A stretch of 64,000 bases of DNA from Kitasatospora xanthocidica. Lineage in GTDB: Bacteria; Actinomycetota; Actinomycetes; Streptomycetales; Streptomycetaceae. Below, in pieces: positions 11,308 through 26,517 of the stretch. The stretch covers positions 565,148 to 629,147 of the forward strand of contig NZ_BNBY01000001.1 in the NCBI RefSeq assembly GCF_014656195.1, written 5' to 3'. A model generated the notes under the pieces. That model was not told where the DNA came from. It ran no database searches and saw only the letters and a list, made by a program, of their open reading frames with translations. How positions within the stretch are numbered: the stretch's first letter is position 1; each line of letters opens with the position of its first letter. The position numbers and the translations under genes were made by a program.

Positions 11308-12342
11308 ATGCGTAAGACCGCTGCCAACCTGCTTGCCGCCGCCGCGCTGGCGACCTCGCTCGCCACCGTCTTCGCGGGCACCGCCACCGCCGACCCGGCC
11401 GTCCTGCCGAACTCCCAGGACATCGTGGGCGTCGGCTCGGACACCACCCAGGCCGTGCTGAACCAGCTCTCCGCCGACTACAACGCGACGGTCACCAACC
11501 CGAGCGCCCCCCACCTGTACAGCTGGGACGCGATCCCGGCCGGCACCATCACCACCAAGTCGGGCGCCACCCCGATCACCCGCCCGAACGGCTCCGGCGC
11601 CGGCATCACCGCGCTGAACGCCAACACCAGCGCCACCGTGGACTTCGCCCGCTCCTCGCGCGCCCCGCAGCCGACCGACCCGACCACCGACGACTTCGTC
11701 GCGCTGGCCAAGGACGCCGTCTCCTGGGCCGCCCCGTCCGGCGGCAACGCCCCGGCGAACCTGACCACGCAGAACCTGAAGGACATCTACACCTGCACGG
11801 TCACCAACTGGACCCAGATCAACGCGTCGCTCCCCAACGCCACGATCAAGCCGTTCCTGCCGCAGACCGGCTCCGGCACCCGCTCCTTCTTCCTGACCAC
11901 CATCGGTGGCGGCACCGCCGTCAACCCGGGCGCCTGCGTCACCAGCGGCACCCAGGAGAACCAGGGCAGCGACCCGGCCCTGGCCGACGTCAACGCGCTG
12001 GTCCCCTACTCCGTGGCCCACTACATCGGCCAGGTCTACTTCGGCAAGGGCAGCGGCGCCGACGTCCAGGGCCCGCTGACCATCCGCTCCGTCGACGGCA
12101 CCGCGCCGGTCGACACCGTGAACAAGACGATCAGCTCCGCGTTCGCGGCCACCCCGTACGCCCGCGTGGTCTACAACGTCTTCCGTGACGCCGAGTGGAC
12201 CGCGACCGACGTCCACGGCACCACCCTGCGCGCCATCTTCGGCCGCGGTGGCTGGATCTGCGCCAACGGTGCCACCACCATCAAGAGCTTCGGCTTCCTG
12301 CCGCTGTCCTCCTTCGCCTGCGGCAGCGTCACCCACTCCTGA
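11308..12342 (+). CDS. Secreted phosphate-type periplasmic-binding-protein homologue
   Basis: The protein has 344 residues. A classical signal peptide ends near GTATADPA (Ala-X-Ala at about 26-28) and has no lipobox, so the protein is freely secreted. The mature part has the PBP type-2 layout of PstS-like proteins: DIVGVGSDTTQ at the start, GSGAGITAL, a TTQNLKDIYTCTVTNWTQ hinge segment and PQTGSGTRSFFL, the usual oxyanion-binding GSGTR. It is the first gene of the Pst-like locus but is separated from the next by a strong hairpin. The ligand is inferred to be phosphate or a similar oxyanion, not proven. Confidence 0.8.
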   Translation: MRKTAANLLAAAALATSLATVFAGTATADPAVLPNSQDIVGVGSDTTQAVLNQLSADYNATVTNPSAPHLYSWDAIPAGTITTKSGATPITRPNGSGAGITALNANTSATVDFARSSRAPQPTDPTTDDFVALAKDAVSWAAPSGGNAPANLTTQNLKDIYTCTVTNWTQINASLPNATIKPFLPQTGSGTRSFFLTTIGGGTAVNPGACVTSGTQENQGSDPALADVNALVPYSVAHYIGQVYFGKGSGADVQGPLTIRSVDGTAPVDTVNKTISSAFAATPYARVVYNVFRDAEWTATDVHGTTLRAIFGRGGWICANGATTIKSFGFLPLSSFACGSVTHS

Positions 12343-12512: not shown

Positions 12513-13109
12513 ATGACCCGCATCAGCGCCCGCCTGGCCTCGACCGGCGCCGCCGTCGTCCTCGCCCTGACCGCCGTGAGCGGTGCGGCCGTCGCGGACA
12601 CCCCCGCCACCGCGCCGGCCGCCGGCCAGGCCGTGATCACCACCGACGTGAACTTCCTGTCGGCCGCCGCGCTCAAGGGCATCGTGGTCATCCCGCTCCA
12701 GCCCGCCAACCCGACCTTCGACCCGAACGCCGGGCTCACCGTGACCCTTCCGGTGAGCGGCGGCGCCGCGAACATCCCGGCCTTCTACGGTGACGTGCAG
12801 TTCGGCGGCGGGCTGCTCTTCCTGAACCTCTCCACGGGCAGGAGCGTGACCTTCAAGCAGTTCGACTTCTCGGTCGCCAACGGCTACTTCACCGCCGTGC
12901 CGAACGGCTCCACCACCCCCGTCCCGCTCCTGGACCCGGCCGGGGACAACGTGATCAACCGCAACGGCCTCACCCAGAACCTGAACTCCTCCAGCTTCCA
13001 GGTGGACGCCGAGGGCGCCACGTACCTCGACGCCAAGCTCGGCACCACCTTCTTCACCGCCGGCCAGCAGGTCGGTTCGCTCGCGCTCTCCTACACCCCG
13101 GCGCACTGA
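12513..13109 (+). CDS. Small secreted protein of unknown function
   Basis: The ATG at 12513 follows CCCAAGGAGTTCGGC. Its 198 residues begin with a clear signal peptide (cleavage near GAAVADTPA). The mature part is beta-rich, without cysteines, and carries Asn/Thr/Ser-rich strands such as GGGLLFLNLSTGRSVTFKQF. I recognise no family. Its position between two binding-protein-like genes, and its export, suggest it is part of the same cell-surface system; this is inference only. Confidence 0.75.
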   Translation: MTRISARLASTGAAVVLALTAVSGAAVADTPATAPAAGQAVITTDVNFLSAAALKGIVVIPLQPANPTFDPNAGLTVTLPVSGGAANIPAFYGDVQFGGGLLFLNLSTGRSVTFKQFDFSVANGYFTAVPNGSTTPVPLLDPAGDNVINRNGLTQNLNSSSFQVDAEGATYLDAKLGTTFFTAGQQVGSLALSYTPAH

Positions 13110-13405: not shown

Positions 13406-16090
13406 ATGAGAAACCGCGTACCCGACCCGAGAGGCCGAGGGCGGTGGCGTCGCCGACTACCGGCGCTGGCGCTCGTCAAGGCCGTGGTGGCGGCGCTCGC
13501 CGTCGTTCCGATCGGGTTGGGCGCGGTGCCGCAGGCACACGCCGACTCGGCCATGACGGTGAAGGGCCCGAAGGTCTGGATCCCGGCCACCAAGACGTAC
13601 GGTCCCGAGGGCAGCGTGTCGGTCTCCCAGACCGCCAACCTGACCAACCAGGTGCTCCAGGTCTCCTGGAGCGGCTTCACGCCGACCGTCTCGCTGGGCT
13701 CCAAGGCCCCCGTCCAGGTGGCGGTCAAGGAGTCGAACTTCATCCTCTACGCGGTGCGGATCTACCAGTGCCGCGGCACCGACCCGGCGGTGACGGACTG
13801 CTACGGCAGCACCCTCTACGGCGGCGACCCGGCGAAGGGCTTCGAGCAGCCGCCCCGTCCGACGCACCTGGAGACGCCGGAGTGGCCCACCAACCAGGTG
13901 ATCGCCGCGACCGGGCCGGACGGCTCGGGCACCGCCTCGATCGAGGTGTGGAGCGCCAAGGAGAGCGCCACGCTGGGCTGCGACGCGACCCACCCGTGCT
14001 CCCTGGTGGTCGAGCCGAACTACGGCGGCGACCCGCTGGACCTCTTCCAGGTCCAGAACGGCGGGGCCGACTGCGAGTTCCACGACCTGGACGACGATCC
14101 GGACGGCTACACCGCCGCCGACGGGATCATGAAGCCCGGCCCCGCCTTCCAGAACTGGAAGACCGGCAACCGGACCAGCGAGCAGTGCGCCTGGAAGCAC
14201 CGGACCGTGGTCCCGCTCAGCTTCGCCCCCACGGCGGACTCCTGCGCGGCCAGCGACCAGGCCTTCGGCGCGGCCGGACTGGAGCTGGCCAACCGGGCCA
14301 TGCAGCAGTGGCGGGCCGGGCTCTGCCTGGGCAGCTCGCCGATGACCGTCGGCTACGTCCCGGCCGGTGGTGAGCCGCAGGCCCGCGCCGCCTTCCTGGG
14401 CGGCAGCGGCAGCACCGAGGTCGCGCTGACGGCGCGGCCGGACCGCTCCCCGCCCCCGCGTCCGTACGTCTACGCCCCGCTCGCCACGACCGGGATCTCG
14501 GTCGCGTTCGTGGTCGACGACCCGGCGACCGGCCGGCAGATTCGCGACATGAGGCTGAACGCCAGGCTCCTGGCCAAACTGCTGACCCAGTCCTACGCGT
14601 CCCCGGGCTCCACGATCCCCTCCGTGGCCGGCAACCCGACCTGCCTCTTCACCGACCCCGAGTTCCAGCAGCTCAACCCGGAGACCGCGGCCAACGGGAT
14701 CCACTGGCCGAAGAGCTGCGGCGGGATCCTGACGATCTACCCCGGCGTTCCCGGCGGCACCACCGACTTCACCTACCTGGTGACCTCCTGGGTGGCCGCC
14801 GATCCCGACGCGGCCCGCTTCCTCGACGGTGAGCGCGACCCGTGGGGCATGCGCGTCGACAGCTTCTACCTGAAGCCCAAGTTCGCCGGTTACCCCTCTG
14901 AGGCCTTCCAGACCCAGGACTTCACCGGGCCCGACCGGGACGGCACGGCCGTGGACCTCCGGCACTGGAAGCAGTACGAGTGGAACCCCTCCCTCGACGG
15001 CATCGGGCGGGTGGCCCGCAACCTGATGCAGAGCCAGCCCAACTGCCAGGACCCGAACATCGACCCGGTCACCAACGGCCACAAGCCCTGCGCGGTGCAG
15101 GCCGTCGGCCAGCGCGCGATGCTCGCCATCATGGACACCGCCCAGGCCAAGGCGTTCTCGCTGCCCGAGGCCGCGCTGCTCAACCCGGCCGGCTCCTACG
15201 TGTCGCCCTCCACGGCCGGCTTCCAGGCCGCCGTCGCCGACATGCCGACCGACCCCGCCACCGGGGTCCAGCAGCTGCCGTACGGCACGCCCGACACCGC
15301 GTTCTCGCGGGACCAGCGCGCCTACCCGCTGAGCGTCGTCCAGTACGCGATGGTGCCGACCGGCGGGGTGCCCGCCGCGAAGGCCGCCTCGATCGCGCAG
15401 TTCCTCAGGACGGTGACCACCGACGGCCAGACCTACGGCCTCGCGCCGGGCCAGCTCGCCCAGGGCTACCTGGCCCTGAACGGGGCCCAGCGGCAGCAGG
15501 CCCAGGAGGCGGTCCAGCACGTCGCCGCCCAGGACGGCAAGCTGCCCGGCAACCAGACCGCGCCCCCGGCCCCGGGCACCGACCCGGGCACCCCGGAGAG
15601 CGGGAACGGCGGCTCGGCCACCGGCGGCACGACCGGCGGCACCGGCCCGGTGAACACCGCCGGCACCGACACCGGTACCGCCGGCAGCGGCGGCGGCTCG
15701 GCCTCCGGCGGCACCGGCCTCGGCTCCTCCGACGGTTCCTCCGGTGGCTCGTCCGGTGGCTCGTCCGGCGGCCTGTCCGGCACCGGCTCCACCGGCACGG
15801 GTACGGCCGGCGGCGCCGCGGCGCCCGGCACCCCGGCGGCCGGCGGCAAGCCCGGCGCGACCGCGGCCCCCTCCGCCGCTCCCTCCGGCGGCCCGCTCGC
15901 CGCGGCCCCGGTCGGCAGCCCGGTGCCCGACCGGCCCGGCACCGCCCGGCTGCTGCTGCCGATCGCGCTGATCGCGGGCCTGGTGCTGCTGGTCGGCGGA
16001 CCGGCCGCGCTCTTCCTGGGCGGCACCCCGGCCGGCGCGAAGGTGCTGGCCGGAGCCCGCACCCAGTGGTCGCGGCTGCGCCGCAAGTAG
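13406..16090 (+). CDS. Large C-terminally anchored ectoprotein with a binding-protein-like domain
   Basis: The protein has 894 residues. The ATG at 13406 follows CCGGAGG and gives a Tat/Sec-like N-terminus rich in Arg with a hydrophobic core ending at QAHADSA (about 45-51). Residues 52-300 form an apparent beta-sandwich region with several Cys. Residues about 355-710 contain PBP-2-like signatures, for example APLATTGISVAFVVDD, LLAKLLTQSY and YPLSVVQYAMVPTGG, resembling PstS-type proteins. A Gly/Ser/Thr-rich linker (about 720-845) precedes one transmembrane helix (LLLPIALIAGLVLLVGG) and a basic tail ending RLRRK. There is no LPXTG motif, so it is held by the helix itself. Confidence 0.8.
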   Translation: MRNRVPDPRGRGRWRRRLPALALVKAVVAALAVVPIGLGAVPQAHADSAMTVKGPKVWIPATKTYGPEGSVSVSQTANLTNQVLQVSWSGFTPTVSLGSKAPVQVAVKESNFILYAVRIYQCRGTDPAVTDCYGSTLYGGDPAKGFEQPPRPTHLETPEWPTNQVIAATGPDGSGTASIEVWSAKESATLGCDATHPCSLVVEPNYGGDPLDLFQVQNGGADCEFHDLDDDPDGYTAADGIMKPGPAFQNWKTGNRTSEQCAWKHRTVVPLSFAPTADSCAASDQAFGAAGLELANRAMQQWRAGLCLGSSPMTVGYVPAGGEPQARAAFLGGSGSTEVALTARPDRSPPPRPYVYAPLATTGISVAFVVDDPATGRQIRDMRLNARLLAKLLTQSYASPGSTIPSVAGNPTCLFTDPEFQQLNPETAANGIHWPKSCGGILTIYPGVPGGTTDFTYLVTSWVAADPDAARFLDGERDPWGMRVDSFYLKPKFAGYPSEAFQTQDFTGPDRDGTAVDLRHWKQYEWNPSLDGIGRVARNLMQSQPNCQDPNIDPVTNGHKPCAVQAVGQRAMLAIMDTAQAKAFSLPEAALLNPAGSYVSPSTAGFQAAVADMPTDPATGVQQLPYGTPDTAFSRDQRAYPLSVVQYAMVPTGGVPAAKAASIAQFLRTVTTDGQTYGLAPGQLAQGYLALNGAQRQQAQEAVQHVAAQDGKLPGNQTAPPAPGTDPGTPESGNGGSATGGTTGGTGPVNTAGTDTGTAGSGGGSASGGTGLGSSDGSSGGSSGGSSGGLSGTGSTGTGTAGGAAAPGTPAAGGKPGATAAPSAAPSGGPLAAAPVGSPVPDRPGTARLLLPIALIAGLVLLVGGPAALFLGGTPAGAKVLAGARTQWSRLRRK

Positions 16091-16239: not shown

Positions 16240-17271
16240 ATGACATCGGCCGCTCAGCCCGCGGCACCGTACGCCGGGGCGCCACGCCAACCCGGCCACG
16301 GGCCCGACCAGGACGTCCCGCGCACCGTCACCGCCCCCGCGACCCCGGGTGACCGGGTGTTCCGCGGCGTGCTGCGGCTGGCCGGCCTCTCGGTCTTCGC
16401 GATCATGGGACTGATCGCCTTCTTCCTGATCCTGCGCGGCACCGACGCGCTGCGCACGGTCGGCTGGTCCTTCCTGACCGAGCAGAAGTGGCAGACCGCC
16501 GCCCACAACTTCGGCATCGCCGCCGTGCTGCCCAACGGCCTGCTGATCGCGGTGATCGCGCTGGTCATCGCCGTCCCGGTGGCACTCGGCACCGCGATCT
16601 TCATCTCCGAGTACGCGCCGGTGCGGCTGCGCGCCGCGCTGATCTCGCTCGTCGACCTGATGGCGGCGATCCCCAGCATCGTCTACGGCCTGTGGGGCCT
16701 GTTCTTCCTGCAGCCGCGGATCATCGGCTTCGTCCGCTGGATGGCCAACCACCTGGGCGACACCATCCCCTTCCTCAAGGTGCGCATCGGCGACATCGGC
16801 ACCTCGTACACCTCCTCGACCTTCATCGCCGGCGTGGTGGTCTCCCTGATGATCATCCCGATCGTCACCTCGCTCAGCCGGGAGGTCTTCTCCCAGGCCC
16901 CGCAGGGCGAGCGGGAGGGCGCGTACGCGCTGGGCTCCACCCGCTGGGGGATGGTCCGCGCGGTGGTGCTGCCGTTCGGCAAGGGCGGCGTGATCGGCGC
17001 GGTCATGCTGGGTTTCGGCCGGGCGATGGGCGAGACCATCGCCGTCGCGCTGATCATCTCGCCGAACTTCAAGGCCATCACGCACATCCTGGAGAACGGC
17101 GCCAACTCGATCTCCGCGCTGATCGCGCTGCGCTTCGGCGAGTCGGACGCGCTGTCGCTCTCCGCGCTGATGGCCGCCGGTCTGGTGCTGTTCGCGCTCA
17201 CCCTGCTGGTCAACGTGCTGGCCGGGATCGTCATCAACCGCTCGCGCTCCGGCGCCGCGACGGCGGACTGA
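16240..17271 (+). CDS. pstC: Phosphate-type ABC transporter permease PstC-like
   Basis: This 343-residue protein has six predicted membrane segments and a Pro/Ala-rich cytoplasmic N-terminus of about 40 residues. The features LMAAIPSIVYGLWGLFFL, SLREVFSQ-type coupling (SLSREVFSQAPQGEREGAYALGST) and GFGRAMGETIAVAL are diagnostic for PstC. The start ATG at 16240 follows GGAGAG. It forms the membrane channel with PstA, 67 bases downstream. It is called PstC-like because the cluster is not the classical pstSCAB arrangement. Confidence 0.9.
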   Translation: MTSAAQPAAPYAGAPRQPGHGPDQDVPRTVTAPATPGDRVFRGVLRLAGLSVFAIMGLIAFFLILRGTDALRTVGWSFLTEQKWQTAAHNFGIAAVLPNGLLIAVIALVIAVPVALGTAIFISEYAPVRLRAALISLVDLMAAIPSIVYGLWGLFFLQPRIIGFVRWMANHLGDTIPFLKVRIGDIGTSYTSSTFIAGVVVSLMIIPIVTSLSREVFSQAPQGEREGAYALGSTRWGMVRAVVLPFGKGGVIGAVMLGFGRAMGETIAVALIISPNFKAITHILENGANSISALIALRFGESDALSLSALMAAGLVLFALTLLVNVLAGIVINRSRSGAATAD

Positions 17272-17338: not shown

Positions 17339-18568
17339 ATGACCACGCTCGACCTGCCGCCGGTCGCGGCGTCCGGGCCCGCCGGTGCGCCCGCGCCCGC
17401 CGCGGTCGACCCGCCGCGGCCCGAGAAGAGGATCCGGATCGGCGGCGTCACCCGCGACGACGTCCTCACCGTGGCGGGCGCCGCGACCGGCTCGCTCGCG
17501 CTGGACTGGGTGCTGTACGAGCGGGTGCTGCCGTTCAGCGGCGCCTTCGGCTTCCTGATCTGCTGGTACCTGCTCTTCCTGGCCGGCTACTACCTGCTCG
17601 GCCGGCTCCAGTGGAACCCGATGATGGTGCGCGACCGGCTGATCGCCGTGGTCGCCTGGAGCTCCGGGCTGCTGGTGGTCGGGCTGATCGCCGACCAGAT
17701 CGGCTACGTCGGCAGCCGCGGCTGGGAGGCGGCCCAGCACCTCAACTTCTTCACCGAGTCGATGGAGCACACCGGCCCGCTCGACCCGCTCACCTCCGGC
17801 GGCGCCCTCAACGCGATCGTCGGCTCGCTCGAACAGCTGGGTCTGGCCACCCTGTTCGCCGTTCCGCTGGGCATCGCGGCGGCCGTCTTCATGTCCGAGG
17901 TCGGCGGCCGGCTGGCCCGCCCGGTGCGCACCCTGGTCGAGGCGATGACGGCGCTGCCGTCCATCGTGGCCGGCCTGTTCATCCTCGGCGTCGTGATCAT
18001 CACCTTCGGCTTCGAGAAGAGCGGCCTCGCGGCCTCGCTCGCGCTCACCGTGATGATGATGCCGATCGTCACCCGGGCCGCCGAGGTGGTCATCCGGCTG
18101 GTGCCCGGCACGCTGCGCGAGGCCTCGTACGCGCTCGGCGGCAGCCAGTGGCGCACGGTGTGGAACGTGGTGCTGCCCACCGCCCGGCCCGGCCTGGTGA
18201 CCGCGGTGGTGCTCGGCATGGCGCGCGGCGTCGGCGAGACCTCGCCGGTGCTGCTGACCTCCGGCTTCACCTCGCAGTTCAACGGCAGCCCCGTGGACGG
18301 GCACCAGGTCTCGCTGCCGCTGTACATCTGGAACTACGTCAAGCAGCCGTACGACGGGATGATCGCGCGCGGCTTCGCGGCCGGTCTGACCCTGATGGGC
18401 GTGGTCCTGATCCTCTTCGTCACCGCGCGCGTGCTCGGCGGCCGCAGGCCCGGGCAGCTGACCCGGGCGCAGAGGCGCCGGTTCGACCGGGAGGCCCGCC
18501 GGCAGAGGGCGGCCGCCGCCGGCGGAGTGGCCCGCCCGTACGCGCTCCCACCGCGGGCCGAGCGCTGA
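17339..18568 (+). CDS. pstA: Phosphate-type ABC transporter permease PstA-like
   Basis: The protein has 409 residues, longer than typical PstA (about 300) because of an N-terminal extension with two additional hydrophobic segments (about 48-105). The PstA core contains TALPSIVAGLFILG, TRAAEVVIRLVPGTLREASYALG (the EAA-like loop contacting PstB) and ARGVGETSPVLLTSGF. The start ATG 17339 follows GAAGGGA. It is followed after 38 bases by the anchored PstS-like gene. Confidence 0.9.
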   Translation: MTTLDLPPVAASGPAGAPAPAAVDPPRPEKRIRIGGVTRDDVLTVAGAATGSLALDWVLYERVLPFSGAFGFLICWYLLFLAGYYLLGRLQWNPMMVRDRLIAVVAWSSGLLVVGLIADQIGYVGSRGWEAAQHLNFFTESMEHTGPLDPLTSGGALNAIVGSLEQLGLATLFAVPLGIAAAVFMSEVGGRLARPVRTLVEAMTALPSIVAGLFILGVVIITFGFEKSGLAASLALTVMMMPIVTRAAEVVIRLVPGTLREASYALGGSQWRTVWNVVLPTARPGLVTAVVLGMARGVGETSPVLLTSGFTSQFNGSPVDGHQVSLPLYIWNYVKQPYDGMIARGFAAGLTLMGVVLILFVTARVLGGRRPGQLTRAQRRRFDREARRQRAAAAGGVARPYALPPRAER

Positions 18569-18606
18569 TGTCCCGTCCAACCACCCTCCGTACCAGAGGA
18601 GTTCAC

Positions 18607-20454
18607 ATGTTCCGGGAGGCCGCAAGGCGCTCCATGGCCCGGCTGCTGGCGGGGACGATGTCCCTGTCGCTCGCCACGGCCTCCCTGCTGCTCGGGCAGA
18701 CCCCGGCCCACGCGGCCTCCGTCTCGCTGAGCGCGGACGGCTCCAGCTGGGCCGGCCCCGCGATCGACCAGTGGCGGCAGGACGTGTCGCCGCAGGGCAT
18801 CCAGATCAACTTCAACCCGGTCGGCTCGGCGGCCGGCCGCACCCAGTGGTCGATCGGACAGGACGACTTCACCGCCTCCGACGTGCCGTTCCGCTCCGCG
18901 CCGGACACCGGCCTCGGGCAGAACGGCCACGCGAACGGCGGCGGCGACCGGGAGAACCCGGTCTACGGCTTCTCCTACGTCCCGATCACCGCGGGTGGCA
19001 CCACCTTCATGTACAACCTGGTGGTCGGCGGCAAGCAGGTCCGCGACCTGCGGCTGTCCCCGCAGACCATCGTGGACATCTTCACCAACAAGATCACCAA
19101 CTGGAACGACCCGAAGATCACCGCCGACTACGGCAAGGCCCTGCCCAACCTGCAGATCACCCCGGTGATCCGCTCCGACGGCTCCGGCGCCACCGCGCAG
19201 TTCACCCGCTGGATGGAACACACCCACAAGGACCAGTGGGACGCCTACTGCAAGTCGGTCAACGGCGTCAGCTGCGGCGACTACACCGAGTTCTTCCCGC
19301 CCTCCGGCCGGATGACCGCCCAGAACGGCTCCGACGTGGTGGCCGGCTACATCAAGTCCCCCGGCAACCAGGGCACCATCGGCTACGACGAGTACGCCTT
19401 CGCCAAGCGCAGCAACTGGCCGGTCGTGAAGGTGCTCAACGCGGCCGGCTACTACTCGCTGCCGACCGCCTCCAACGTCGCCGTCGCGCTCACCGCCGCC
19501 AGGATCCGCGGCGTGGACGACGGCACCCCGGCGGACGACCCGAACTACCTCCAGCAGAACCTCGACGGCGTCTACAGCATGAACGACCCGCGGGCGTACC
19601 CGATCTCCAGCTACAGCTACCTGATCGTGCCGCGCGCCGGAGCGGCGCAGCCCCCGCCGCCGCGCTTCAACAACGACAAGGGCTCCGCGCTCAGCCGCTT
19701 CCTCTCCTACGTGCTGTGCGAGGGCCAGGGCAAGGCGGACGACCTCGGGTACTCGCCGATCCCGCGCGGCCTGGTCCGCGGCGGACTGCTGCAGACCAAG
19801 TCCATCCCCGGCAACGCCAGCCCGGTCGACCCCAACACCCTCTCCAACTGCGCCAACCCGACCTTCAACGCGGCCGGCGAGCTGACCGTCCTCAAGAACG
19901 CCCCGATGCCCAGCGAGTGCGACAAGCTGGGCGCCCCGCTCAACTGCGTGGTGCAGGGCGGCAAGGCGACGCCGGCCGGCTCCGGCAGCGGCGCGGGCTC
20001 CGGCGGTGCCGGTGGCTCGGGCGGGTCCGGCGGCACCGGTGGTGCGGCGGGCGGTTCCGGCGGCACCGGCGGCTCGGGCGGATCCGGCGGCGGCACCGGG
20101 AACGGCGGCGGCACGGGCGGTGCCGGCACGGGCGGCACCGGTGGGGCCGACGGCGCGGCCGGCGGCGACCCGAACGCGGCCGGCGCCGGCGGTGCCGGTG
20201 ACCCGAACGCGGCCGGCGACGCCGGTGACGGCGCCGGGGACGTGATCGACCCGCAGACCGGCCAGGTGGTCGCCCGCGGCCGCGGCGCCGCCGCCACCGA
20301 GGTGGCGGCCAACGTGGTCGAGGTCAGCGGCAAGCCCGAGGACTGGACGCTGTCCACCCTCACCGCGCTCGAACTGCTCGCCGTGGTGCTCGTCCCGCCG
20401 CTGCTCGGGCGGCGCCTGCTGCGCCGCCGCAACGGCTCGGGCGGCACCTCGTGA
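18607..20454 (+). CDS. PstS-like binding protein with C-terminal membrane anchor
   Basis: The protein has 615 residues. The ATG at 18607 sits seven bases after AGAGGAG and yields a signal peptide ending near TPAHAASV. Residues about 38-430 are a PstS-type domain: [46 protein letters not shown] and the oxyanion loop [16 protein letters not shown] long Gly-rich linker (about 455-545) leads to a transmembrane helix ([16 protein letters not shown]) and a tail of six Arg within ten residues. Usual actinobacterial PstS proteins are lipoproteins, so the C-terminal anchor is unusual. The stop overlaps the start of the pseudo-sortase gene by four bases. Confidence 0.88.
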
Positions 20455-21365
20455 CCGCCCCGGTGCTGGAGAAGCCGGCCGGGCGGCCGGCGCCGACCGC
20501 CGCGCCGGAGCCCACGGCCGACGGGCCGGCGCCCGCCCGGCCCGCCGTCCCGCCCGGGCGGCGGCGGTTCCTCCAGGGCGCCTGGGCGGTCAGCCTGGCG
20601 GCCGCGCTGGTACTGGGCTTCGTCGGCTACCTGTTCACGCTCTCGCACGTGCAGGAGCGGCACTACCAGTCCACCGCCTACAAGACCTTCCGGGACCAGC
20701 TGGCCCGGGCCGTCGCCCCGACCGGCGCGGCCGCCGACGGCGACCCGGTGGCGCTGCTGGACATCCCGGCGATCGGCCTGCACCAGGCCGTCGTGGTCGA
20801 GGGCACCACCGGCCGGGACCTGATGCGCGGCCCCGGCCACCGCCGGGACACCGCGCTGCCCGGCCAGCGCGGCGTCGCGGTGGTCTTCGGCCGCGGCGCC
20901 ACCTTCGGCGCCCCGTTCGCCGAGCTGTCCAAGCTGCGGGTCGGCGACAAGATCGAAGCCACCACCGGGCAGGGCAGGTTCACCTACACCGTCAACGTGT
21001 ACGGCGACGGCGACCACCCGATCGCCGACCCGGCCCGCAACCGGATGGTGCTGGTCACCGGGGACTCCGACTGGATCCCCGGCTCCACCGTCATGATCGG
21101 CGCCCGGCTGGAGGGCGAACCCGAGCAGAACCCCGGCGGCCGGCCCGCGACCGTCCCGTACGACAAGGCGCTGGCCGCCGACAAGGGCGCGCTGGCCACC
21201 CTGCAGCTGTGGTCGCTCGCCCTGCTGGGCGCGGTGCTCGGCGCGCTGGTGCTGGCCCGGTACTGGCGGCGCTCGGCCGCCTACCTGAGCCTCGCGCCGG
21301 TGGTCGGCGCGCTGCTCTGGGCGGTCTACGAGAACGCCGCCGCCCTGCTGCCCAACCTCTACTGA
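20451..21365 (+). CDS. Catalytically dead sortase-like membrane protein
   Basis: The protein has 304 residues: a transmembrane helix (about 42-62), a sortase-fold extracellular domain (about 95-225) and two C-terminal helices (about 232-255 and 266-292). The sortase landmarks [15 protein letters not shown] (127-141), [18 protein letters not shown] and the terminal strand VMIGARLEG are intact. The catalytic sites are not: the AGH(R) histidine position reads FGRG (Arg148), the TTC cysteine position reads VTGD (Gly204), and no Arg sits at the usual place before the last strand. It overlaps the anchored PstS-like gene by four bases and precedes pstB by 23, so it is probably a stoichiometric partner of the transporter, not an enzyme. 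Confidence 0.85.
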
Positions 21366-21388: not shown

Positions 21389-22321
<933 letters not shown>

Positions 22322-23685: not shown

Positions 23686-26355
23686 CTAGCGGAGCGCCAG
23701 CGACAGGGCCGTCGCGTTGTAGCTGTTGACGGGCAGCGCCGCGTCGTACCAGACGCCACCGGCGCTGTGCACCTCGTGCACCTGGTTGTCCTCGACCGCC
23801 TCGATGACGCGCTCGCCGGCCTTGGTGATCTTCGCCGACAGGGCGGTGATGCCCGTGACGCCGGGGATCACGCCGTCGTGCCAGCCGTCGGAGGCGCTGT
23901 AGACCTCGTGCAGCTGGTTGTTCTTGACGCCCGCGATGACGCGGTCACCGTTGCCGTTGAAGTTGAAGCTGAGCGCGGTGATGCCGCCCAGGCCCGGGAT
24001 CACGCCGTCGTGCCAGCCGTCGGCCGCGCTGTAGACCTCGTGCAGCTCGCCGCCCTTGATGGCCTCGATGACGCGGGCGCCGGAGGGGCTGTAGGAGAAG
24101 CTGAGCGCGGTGATGCCGTCCAGACCGGGGATCACGCCGTCGTGCCAGCCGTCCGGCGCGCTGTACACCTCGTGCAGCTGGCCGTTCTTGATGGCCTCGA
24201 TGACGCGGTCGCCCGAGGGGCTGTAGGAGAAGCTCATCGCGGTGATGCCGTCCAGGCCCGGGATCACGCCGTCGTGCCAGCCGGTGGCGTCGGTGTAGAT
24301 CTCGTGCAGCTGGCCGTTCTCGATCGCCTCGATCACCCGCGCTCCGGAGGAGTTGTAGGTGAAGCTCAGCGCGCTGACGCCGGTGACGCCGGGGACGATG
24401 CCGTCGTGCCAGCCGGTGCCGTCGGTGTAGACCTCGTGCAGCTGGCCGTTCTCGGCGACCTCGATGGTCCGGTTGGTGCCGGAGGCCGGCGGGCAGAGCA
24501 GGCCCATCACCTTGCGGGCGTCGGGGGTGCCCATGCCGGTGGCCATGTCGTAGCCGGAGCCGGCCTGGTACAGGCCGCCCTGGATGCCGATGTCGTTGTT
24601 GCCGGAGGTGACGTCCCGGAGCGGGTTGAGGCCGTTCTTCGCGGCCCAGTAGAACGCCGGGGCGATGAAGCCGACCCGGTCGGAGCAGCTGCCCGGGCCG
24701 TTCTGGTGCGCCACGATGGCGGCCCAGAGCGGGGCGGAGGCGCTGGTGCCGCCGAGGATCGTCCAGGTGTTGGCACCGGTGGCGATCATGTAGCCGGTCG
24801 ACGGGTCGGCGTCGGCGGCCACGTCGGGGACCTGGCGGCAGGCGGTGCCGGCCGCGGCCTGGCAGTTGGTGGTGGTGTACCCGGGGCCGGTGAAGCCGGC
24901 CTGGTACGAGCCGTTGCTGCCGAGCGACCAGCGGGAGACGCCGCCGCCGCTCGCACCGCCGTGGCTGTTCCACACCGACTCGGAGATGGTGCCGGTGGTG
25001 TCGCGCAGGGTGGTGCCGCCGACACCGGTGACGTACGGCTGGCTGGCCGGGTCGGAGGTGCTCAGCGCGTTGGTGATGTTCGTCGGCGCGCCGGCGTTCT
25101 TCAGGTAGTTGCAGCCGCTGGAGCCGTCGTCACCGGAGGCCGCCAGCACGGTCTGGCCCTGCGTCGCGGCCTGGACGAAGATGTCCGACTCCGCCTGCAG
25201 GTCGCTGGTGGCCATCACCTGGTCGCAGACGCCCCAGCTGGTGGTGACCACCTGGGCGAGGTTGTCCGTGACGATCTTGCGGTAGGTGTTCTGGATGTCC
25301 GCCTGGGTGGCCTTCGCGGCGTCCGGGCCCTGGTAGACCAGCACGTTCGCGCGGGGCGCGAGACCGATGACGGTGTCGAGGTCCAGCGCCGTCTCGACGC
25401 CGACGCCGGTGTCGGTCGGCGCGGCCTGGACACCCGCGTTGACCTTGACCCGCTGCACCGAGGCGTTGGTGCCGACGCAGGACTGGTAGGTGTTCAGCGC
25501 CGCGTCGGAGTACTCCTCCAGCGCGAAGACGGCGACCGTCGTGCCGGCGCCCCCGTCGGCCATCGGCTCCAGGCCGTAGGCGCTGGCGAGCATGTGGGGG
25601 CTGAAGTAGTCGTGGGCGTCGACCTTGCCCGGGAACTGCGACGTCGCGCCCGCGCACAGCGCGGGGTAGTTCATGGGCATCCCGGTGCCGTTCGGCACGG
25701 GAGCGGTGAGCGGGCCGGGCTTGCCGGTGGCCCCGACCACGTGGTTGCTGTGCGCCTGGGCCAGCGTGTTGAAGCCGACGACGCCGGTGATCGCCCCGGC
25801 CACGTCGGAACGCACCGAGGGGGCCGTGGTGTTCAGGAATCCGGTCCGGCCGTCGGCCGTCCGGTAACCGGCCAGGTCCACGTCGAAGGCCTGCTTGGCC
25901 TGGGCGACGGTGGTGGAGACCGGGATGGTCAGGCCGTCGTCCTCGACGCCCCCCGGCTTCAGACCCTGGGCCGTCAGAGCCTGCTTGACCTTGGCGACGG
26001 TGGCCTGGTCGGCACCGAAGCGCTGCGCGAACTCACCGGTCTTCAGGAAGCGGTGGTACAGCGGCGAGGTCTTGTCGGTCACCGCCGCGGCGAGCGCCTT
26101 GGCACCGGCCTCGTCGCGGGGCTTCAGGTGCACGCTCAGCTGCACCGGGGTGTCGTCCGCCGGGGCGCCGGTCTTGACGGCGTCGCTCGGCGCGGTCGGC
26201 ACGGTGCCGACGCGCTGGGTCGTCGGTGCGTCGGCCTGAGCCGCCGGCAGGCCCGCGCAGGTGACCAGGGCAGCGGTGGCTATGGCCAGGATGGCCGTCC
26301 TGGACAGCGGATTCGCCGTCCAGGACAACCGGGCGTGTGGCGTCGGATGGGACAT
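23686..26355 (-). CDS. Secreted S53 (sedolisin) peptidase with six-repeat C-terminal domain
   Basis: The protein has 889 residues from the ATG at 26355, preceded by GGGGGGAG. A signal peptide ends at GLPAAQADAP. A pro-kumamolisin domain (about 45-190, including PLYHRFLKTGEFAQRFGA) precedes the catalytic domain. The sedolisin Glu/Asp pair is E321 and D325 (VETALDLD), the oxyanion region is SGDDGSSGC, and the catalytic Ser538 is in GGTSASAP. The Ca2+ site is around DVTSGNND and AGSGYDMATGMGTP. Residues about 629-889 are six tandem 44-residue repeats. The role is inferred as an extracellular acid-type peptidase with a carbohydrate- or surface-binding tail. Confidence 0.93.
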   Translation of the reverse strand: MSHPTPHARLSWTANPLSRTAILAIATAALVTCAGLPAAQADAPTTQRVGTVPTAPSDAVKTGAPADDTPVQLSVHLKPRDEAGAKALAAAVTDKTSPLYHRFLKTGEFAQRFGADQATVAKVKQALTAQGLKPGGVEDDGLTIPVSTTVAQAKQAFDVDLAGYRTADGRTGFLNTTAPSVRSDVAGAITGVVGFNTLAQAHSNHVVGATGKPGPLTAPVPNGTGMPMNYPALCAGATSQFPGKVDAHDYFSPHMLASAYGLEPMADGGAGTTVAVFALEEYSDAALNTYQSCVGTNASVQRVKVNAGVQAAPTDTGVGVETALDLDTVIGLAPRANVLVYQGPDAAKATQADIQNTYRKIVTDNLAQVVTTSWGVCDQVMATSDLQAESDIFVQAATQGQTVLAASGDDGSSGCNYLKNAGAPTNITNALSTSDPASQPYVTGVGGTTLRDTTGTISESVWNSHGGASGGGVSRWSLGSNGSYQAGFTGPGYTTTNCQAAAGTACRQVPDVAADADPSTGYMIATGANTWTILGGTSASAPLWAAIVAHQNGPGSCSDRVGFIAPAFYWAAKNGLNPLRDVTSGNNDIGIQGGLYQAGSGYDMATGMGTPDARKVMGLLCPPASGTNRTIEVAENGQLHEVYTDGTGWHDGIVPGVTGVSALSFTYNSSGARVIEAIENGQLHEIYTDATGWHDGVIPGLDGITAMSFSYSPSGDRVIEAIKNGQLHEVYSAPDGWHDGVIPGLDGITALSFSYSPSGARVIEAIKGGELHEVYSAADGWHDGVIPGLGGITALSFNFNGNGDRVIAGVKNNQLHEVYSASDGWHDGVIPGVTGITALSAKITKAGERVIEAVEDNQVHEVHSAGGVWYDAALPVNSYNATALSLALR
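23689..24471 (-). repeat. Six 132-bp coding repeats (44-residue propeller-like units)
   Basis: Six in-register units begin with R(T/V)I and share N-x-QLHEVY, GWHDGVIPG and ITALSF; five are exactly 44 codons and the last is 41. Units 2-5 are nearly identical, implying recent duplication or conversion. Six blades of this size fit a six-bladed propeller lectin of the AAL/RSL or PLL type. This is inferred from spacing only. Confidence 0.85.
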
Positions 26356-26517
26356 CCGCGCTCCCCCCAATTTGATGATCCGATGGACTCTCGAACGACA
26401 GTCCGACGGGTGTTCTATCAGGCCCTGCCGACAGCTCCGAAATCAATTACCCGCACCGCTCCGACCAGGGGTCGGCGGTCCTTCCCCGGACCGTCCGCGG
26501 TCGCGTGCACCGCCCGC

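Follow-up and report, generated by a model that had tools for sequence, protein, structure and literature searches.

A sortase-like protein family without the catalytic triad accompanies a second Pst-type importer in Actinomycetota and may hold a DPxTG motif of its binding protein

Sortases are cysteine transpeptidases that attach proteins to the cell wall. Class E sortases, such as the LAXTG-specific SrtE1 and SrtE2 of Streptomyces, and the PstSCAB importers are the described systems closest to the locus reported here, and pseudoenzyme binding modules that lost their catalytic residues and kept the fold are represented by iRhoms and pseudokinases. The window analyzed is a stretch of 64,000 nucleotides (nt) of Kitasatospora xanthocidica (assembly GCF_014656195.1, contig NZ_BNBY01000001.1, positions 565,148 to 629,147, forward strand). 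Within a cluster of Pst-type importer genes, it codes for a sortase-like protein without the catalytic His, Cys and Arg, referred to below as the pseudo-sortase. It is moderately likely that this protein binds a [VI]DP[QED]TG motif without cleaving it, holding a PstS-like protein at a second Pst-type importer. A literature search, with most subscription papers and all bioRxiv preprints outside its reach, returned no description of a pseudo-sortase, a Cys-less sortase, a pst-linked sortase or a DPxTG motif.

The pseudo-sortase shares with class E sortases the fold, the highest-scoring NCBIfam model among the sortase models listed, and the GH...PG beta3/beta4 loop, G-x-PF and GD-x-I landmarks. 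Unlike them, it lacks the three catalytic residues, carries Arg131 where class E has Tyr, has two extra C-terminal helices and is located in an importer cluster. With PstSCAB, the cluster shares PstC and PstA proteins scoring over the model cut-offs, a PstB just short of it, and a PstS domain or fold in the binding proteins, whereas a total of three binding proteins, of which two are membrane-anchored at the C-terminus, and the pseudo-sortase set it apart. The DPxTG motif resembles LPXTG and LAXTG sorting signals in having P, T and G in register, followed by a hydrophobic stretch and a basic tail, but it has Asp for Leu, lies 28–40 residues from the hydrophobic stretch and is paired with a sortase without nucleophile.

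The gene and its product are laid out as follows.
20451..21365, + strand: pseudo-sortase gene, GTG start, 304 amino acids (aa), predicted membrane protein.
Layout of the protein: first transmembrane helix at about residues 41–66; sortase domain at about 97–222 (outside); helices at 246–271 and 274–298; C-terminus LLPNLY.

The topology is the probable one from helices, hydrophobicity and basic loops, and the two long C-terminal helices of the model are taken as membrane helices; after them, a nearly invariant LLPN closes the protein. The initial annotation had recognized a sortase scaffold from its fold landmarks, and both profile and structure comparisons agree. Pfam Sortase (PF04203) matched with 52.3 bits (cut-off 26.6; profile positions 1–81 of 125), and the highest NCBIfam sortase model was class_E_sortase with 72.4 bits, under its cut-off of 160. 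All 76 members of the family alignment matched the Pfam Sortase and class E models at E 0.01, and their profile retrieved the Streptomyces avermitilis sortase E structures 5go6 and 5go5 (E 1e-22 and 4e-22). Structure prediction, proposed in that annotation as a check, gave an AlphaFold2 model with a mean predicted local distance difference test score (pLDDT) of 93.7, confidently a sortase fold: Foldseek matched sortase D (4d70) at E 1.1e-11, and the VIA Z score was 18.9 to 4d70 (146 residues, root-mean-square deviation 2.4) and 17.5 to sortase E.

The three catalytic positions were located by alignment with class E sortases. Residue counts are for 137 distinct sequences out of 175 pseudo-sortases gathered.
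20892..20894, + strand: Arg148 at the catalytic His position; of 137 members, 127 have R, 6 have K and 4 have H.
21060..21062, + strand: Gly204 at the catalytic Cys position; of 137 members, 60 have A, 46 have G, 24 have S, 4 have T, 3 have V and none has C.
21084..21089, + strand: Ser212-Thr213, with Thr213 aligned with the catalytic Arg.

The profile alignment to 5go6 pairs Gly204 with the catalytic Cys and Thr213 with the catalytic Arg, so that the position initially read as Ser/Thr212-213 resolves to Thr213. The replacement of His by Arg148 is seen where the window reads VVFGRG and class E sortases of the same genome read ALAAHR and SLAAHR. Orthologues show the same losses, and none of the 137 members has an intact triad. 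The His position is Arg or Lys in 133 of them, the four members with His being from Dactylosporangium, and the catalytic-Arg column contains no Arg in 81 rows, with Arg in 11 and 9 rows at the nearby columns 212 and 215. Relocation of the catalytic residues was ruled out, since no Cys occurs within residues 90–225 of any member. The catalytic death of the family is thus well supported. A shorter beta6/beta7 loop was considered as a further mark of the family and rejected: it has 21 residues in the window protein and a median of 23.5 in the family, and in a rough pattern count of 23 rows of other sortases it had 15–37 (median 26).

The pseudo-sortase was constantly found in the company of pst-type genes. 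A scan of 84,980 species genomes with the peptide [HL][RLV]R[DYS]T[VAP]LPGQ gave 378 relatives, and the analysis was continued with the best 80 of them. The triad is outside this pattern and positions 131–133 are inside it; therefore, members with unusual loops are under-represented among the 80 loci. At least one pst-type gene was present in the available flank of all 80. Of the 59 loci with full flanks, 55 had PstC, PstA, the PstS-like protein, the second binding protein and PstB together, and 57 had at least four of these. Among further loci, the PstS-like or the second anchored protein was found in 33 of 40; the available sequence of the other seven is no longer than about 5 kb. Of 70 genomes of the genus, 48 encode both the pseudo-sortase and the second anchored protein, 19 encode neither, and 2 and 1 encode only one of them (Fisher, 6e-14). 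The disagreeing genomes have a truncated pseudo-sortase (G009), an assembly of about 1,260 contigs (G047) or no explanation (G001). A second type of pseudo-sortase, found in eight genomes, was accompanied by a matching second-type anchored protein in all eight. The partnership with the importer cluster is therefore well supported.

The gene immediately upstream codes for the PstS-like protein, and its linker contains the motif.
18568..20454, + strand: PstS-like phosphate-binding-type protein, 628 aa (PF12849, 113.5 bits; TIGR00975, 160.4 bits, below its cut-off of 205).
20248..20262, + strand: DPQTG motif, residues 561–565, read within [10 protein letters not shown]; the hydrophobic stretch follows 28 residues later.

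By reading, this protein appears to have a signal sequence and a Gly-rich linker, and to end in a transmembrane helix with an RRR tail. Its stop codon is overlapped by 4 nt by the start of the pseudo-sortase gene. A comparable overlap was present in 15 of 33 loci with the two genes −200 to 400 nt apart, with start codons assigned by script, and in none of the 33 were the two genes in one frame. The motif [DN]Px[TN]G was found in 58 of 68 PstS-like tails, compared with 1.9 expected when these linkers were shuffled, and all 58 motifs sit 28–40 residues before the hydrophobic stretch, inside an otherwise variable linker. Over the 73 motif-bearing tails among 98 distinct ones, the form preferred was [VI]-D-P-[QDE]-T-G-[QEL]-x-[VIL]. 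As a control, the tail of the second anchored binding protein had the motif in 2 of 69 cases vs. 0.9 expected; tails of proteins shorter than 450 aa were left out of these counts (L122 for the PstS-like and L105 for the second protein). The initial annotation had suggested that the pseudo-sortase tethers the Gly-rich linkers of the anchored binding proteins. This idea gained correlational support in a narrower form, for the [VI]DP[QED]TG motif in the PstS-like linker rather than for Gly-rich linkers in general; in the second anchored protein, no such motif is found beyond chance.

LPxTG-like strings were present in the second binding protein in 8 of 69 cases vs. 4.1 expected, and half of these eight come from Dactylosporangium. 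There, the four loci whose pseudo-sortases have the His without the Cys (L116, L120, L133 and L141) show LPETG, LPDTG or VPATG in the linker of the second anchored protein.

Variation of the motif was compared with that of the pseudo-sortase, where one loop residue stood out.
20841..20849, + strand: R131-R132-D133 in the beta3/beta4 loop (R132 is Arg in 128 of 137).

Residue 131 is R in 106, L in 18, V in 4, Q in 4, S in 3, A in 1 and E in 1 of the 137 members. Following the conserved GH, Arg131 appears to take the place of Tyr229 of Streptomyces coelicolor SrtE1, a residue proposed in the report of the SrtE1 crystal structure to confer a preference for Ala over Pro at position P3 of LAXTG (PMC5148588). 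The Tyr is gone from the pseudo-sortase loop, and the partner motif has Pro at the P3 place. Pairs of PstS-like protein and pseudo-sortase were collected from 99 loci, omitting L140 (masked stretch), duplicates (identical last 200 residues), L222 and L228 (loop off pattern) and nine loci where no PstS-like gene was within reach. The motif was present in 75 of them. Arg131 was paired with Q, E or D at motif residue X in 58 cases and with a different X residue or a motif-less tail in 20. A residue other than Arg was paired with Q, E or D in 1 case and with a different X residue or a motif-less tail in 20; with the 75 motif-bearing pairs only, the corresponding counts were 58, 6, 1 and 10. Within Catenulispora, HRRD is paired with DPVTG, and HL or HV with DPLTG. 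A correlated-evolution test of residue 131 against X on the tree gave a likelihood ratio (LR) of 18.6 (p 9e-4). In a scan of 147 variable columns, position 131 ranked first and 133 second (17.4), the third reaching 12.0, and none of 357 null simulations of the motif trait reached 18.6 (largest, 15.6). When only the 75 motif-bearing rows were scanned, 131 kept its first rank, here among 156 columns (LR 17.2).

Several observations weigh against a groove that reads the motif. After correction for 147 columns, p for residue 131 is about 0.14, and the position had been noticed before the trait was defined; in addition, the pattern that retrieved the 80 best loci includes positions 131–133. The 75-row scan placed L259, in the C-terminal helices, second (LR 15.7), and the columns reported for it do not include D133. 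Locus L233 has Ser131 together with DPDTG. In 24 of the 99 pairs there is no motif, a look at the whole protein finding none in those 24 linkers, and they include five loci of the second type, from the genus of the window, that have Arg131. The distance of 28–40 residues to the hydrophobic stretch also exceeds that of ordinary sorting signals. Since the corrected p is about 0.14, the statistical link between residue 131 and X is a strong lead, short of proof.

On these data, the following mechanism is proposed. A class E-like sortase would have lost its Cys-His-Arg chemistry and become a permanent component of a second Pst-type importer. The peptide groove would no longer cut and rejoin; with the Cys gone, the tag would be held non-covalently. 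The basic residues 131, 132 and 148 would fit the old groove to an acidic tag, and the loss of the Tyr would lift the disfavour of Pro in it. The tag lies in the tether of the PstS-like protein made from the gene just upstream, which might in this way be kept docked at the PstC/PstA channel or at a set height above it, and the three membrane helices of the pseudo-sortase may pack with the PstC/PstA permease. Of this scheme, the predicted fold, the lost triad, the pst-type company and the conserved motif are shown by the data; direct binding, the permease contact and the purpose of the docking are inferred. As for the broader evolutionary formulation, in which a dead-sortase family turned covalent sorting into non-covalent docking, with a groove that reads and co-evolves with DPxTG and leashes the binding protein to its channel, we regard the chances as evenly balanced.

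The alternative that survives best, although we consider it unlikely, is that the pseudo-sortase is a structural importer subunit that docks the folded part of the binding protein or braces the permease, its groove being unused and DPxTG serving otherwise. The constant synteny would suit such a subunit, as would the three putative membrane helices, the motif-less pairs and the second rank of a C-terminal helix position in one scan. The P301-N302 pair, conserved in all 76 aligned sequences, is also in its favour; in the wider set of 137, Pro301 is invariant and Asn302 nearly so. However, the groove loop is among the best-conserved parts of the protein, with G129 kept in 76, H130 in 71, R132 in 74 and P137-G138-Q139 in 76 of the 76 sequences; R148 is kept in 71. 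Since these beta3/beta4 positions are nearly invariant, the substrate loop has been retained despite the lost chemistry. Moreover, residue 131 follows motif residue X.

The genome itself offers another candidate set of partners: six other genes score above the Pfam Sortase cut-off, and Cys-bearing sortases are encoded among its genes. A decoy or regulator of these active sortases, binding their substrates or lipid II, could be envisaged on that basis, but the pseudo-sortase travels with the pst-type cluster, and this role is regarded as improbable. Even less credible is an enzyme that still works with another nucleophile, for example the Ser found at the Cys position in 24 members. That position is Ala, Gly, Thr or Val in all the other members, no Cys occurs within residues 90–225 of the 137 members, the His has been replaced in nearly the whole family, and Arg is absent from the catalytic-Arg column in 81 rows, though present in a few rows at the nearby columns 212 and 215.

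The distribution of the family was studied at three further levels, in scans made without the 131–133 pattern, and the genus and order loci were added to the set. Matches were found in 50 of 70 genomes of the genus at E 1e-12, some of them to the second type, which is about 40% identical, in 19 of 119 genomes of the order sample at E 1e-15, and in 69 of 108 of the class sample at E 1e-10. Most low-scoring matches of the class sample are taken as ordinary sortases; 22 of its 24 strongest places were used (down to E 4e-39), without G298 and the window itself. In a maximum-likelihood tree of 88 rows, 53 pseudo-sortases were separated from 35 other sortases with a split support of 100/100, and in 100% of 200 bootstrap trees. 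All 35 other rows have the active-site Cys; L010, for which there was no profile match, was left out, and rows L005 and L150 are the same gene. Represented in the rows are, among others, Streptomycetaceae, Catenulisporaceae, Frankiaceae, Pseudonocardiaceae, Micromonosporaceae, Nocardioidaceae, Cellulomonadaceae and an Ilumatobacteraceae bin; of the relatives with names, Kitasatospora and Kitasatospora-like strains are the closest. Since the rows span many families of Actinomycetota, a single loss of the triad, early in this phylum, would be the simplest reading of a tree whose root is not fixed.

Constraint was evaluated from the proportion of nonsynonymous differences (pN) over 20 sequences. 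It was 0.124 for the sortase domain and 0.181 for the complete pseudo-sortase, whose N-terminus is variable, compared with 0.106 for PstC, 0.172 for PstA, 0.086 for PstB, 0.194 for the PstS-like protein and 0.316 for the second binding protein. The sortase domain diverges between species about as little as the permeases. The ratio of nonsynonymous to synonymous substitution rates (dN/dS) was set aside as a proof of selection, being weak since codon bias flattens synonymous change, and the comparison between genes was used instead. Broken copies do exist in a few genus members, with an internal TGA (G008), in pieces (G012) or truncated (G009), but two of these genomes, G009 and G012, also lack the second binding protein or have it split, and the importer system seems to be decaying there as a whole. 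A decaying gene or single-strain mutation is thus practically eliminated by the family-wide loss and the constraint. The conserved non-enzymatic role put forward initially, as opposed to decay, is borne out by this family-wide loss, the single clade, the pst-type neighbours and the permease-like constraint.

The remaining genes of the cluster are the following.
11308..12342, + strand: third binding protein, apparently secreted, 344 aa (PF12849, 61.2 bits; TIGR02136, 66 bits, below cut-off).
12513..13109, + strand: small, apparently secreted protein between the binding proteins, a candidate member of the system (no Pfam match at E 0.1).
13406..16090, + strand: second anchored binding protein, 894 aa, with PstS fold, Gly/Ser/Ala-rich linker and C-terminal hydrophobic stretch.
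16240..17271, + strand: PstC-type permease (TIGR02138, 262.7 bits, over the cut-off of 196.45).
17339..18568, + strand: PstA-type permease (TIGR00974, 207.6 bits, over the cut-off of 193.45).
21389..22321, + strand: PstB-type ATPase (TIGR00972, 338.6 bits, just under the cut-off of 343.2).

PstC, PstA, PstB and the PstS domain thus occur together, PstB and PstS being under the NCBIfam equivalog cut-offs. Another contig of the same genome codes for a PstS over the family cut-off; therefore, the window cluster looks like a second Pst-type system. Its ligand, the transported ion, may be phosphate or another. A pattern search for phosphate boxes gave 24 matches over the whole window vs. 14.4 expected; near the cluster there were only matches with two mismatches, and a box upstream of it was dropped as a candidate.

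The model of the second anchored binding protein (pLDDT 87.7) had its best PstS-fold match at E 6e-13 and weak Foldseek matches to macromomycin/neocarzinostatin (E 3e-3), which, judging from the match length, probably fall on its N-terminal part. Six cysteines of this protein are invariant in 44 aligned sequences. The third binding protein is longer (517–626 aa) in the Nocardioidaceae loci L127, L131, L132 and L134, with a Lys/Thr-rich C-terminal extension. On contig C54 of the same genome (11101–12018, − strand; L178), a serine/threonine protein kinase, by reading, is followed by a PstS-like domain in one frame of 783 aa, possibly a phosphate-sensing receptor kinase. Finally, positions 23686–26370 of the window (− strand) code for what reads as a secreted sedolisin-like protease of 894 aa, which carries about five repeats of the form RVIEAI..GQLHEVY....WHDGVIPG in its C-terminal part.

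If the proposed role is correct, the pseudo-sortases would be a pseudoenzyme family in a fold for which the literature search returned none, and a large clade tied to an ATP-binding cassette (ABC) importer, in which a nine-residue motif and a single groove residue appear to change together. This would suggest that large binding proteins are kept at the membrane of some actinobacteria by a helix plus a held tether. A protein with a sortase fold is easily annotated as an active sortase, and sortase-like annotations in pst-type clusters would then merit a check of the triad.

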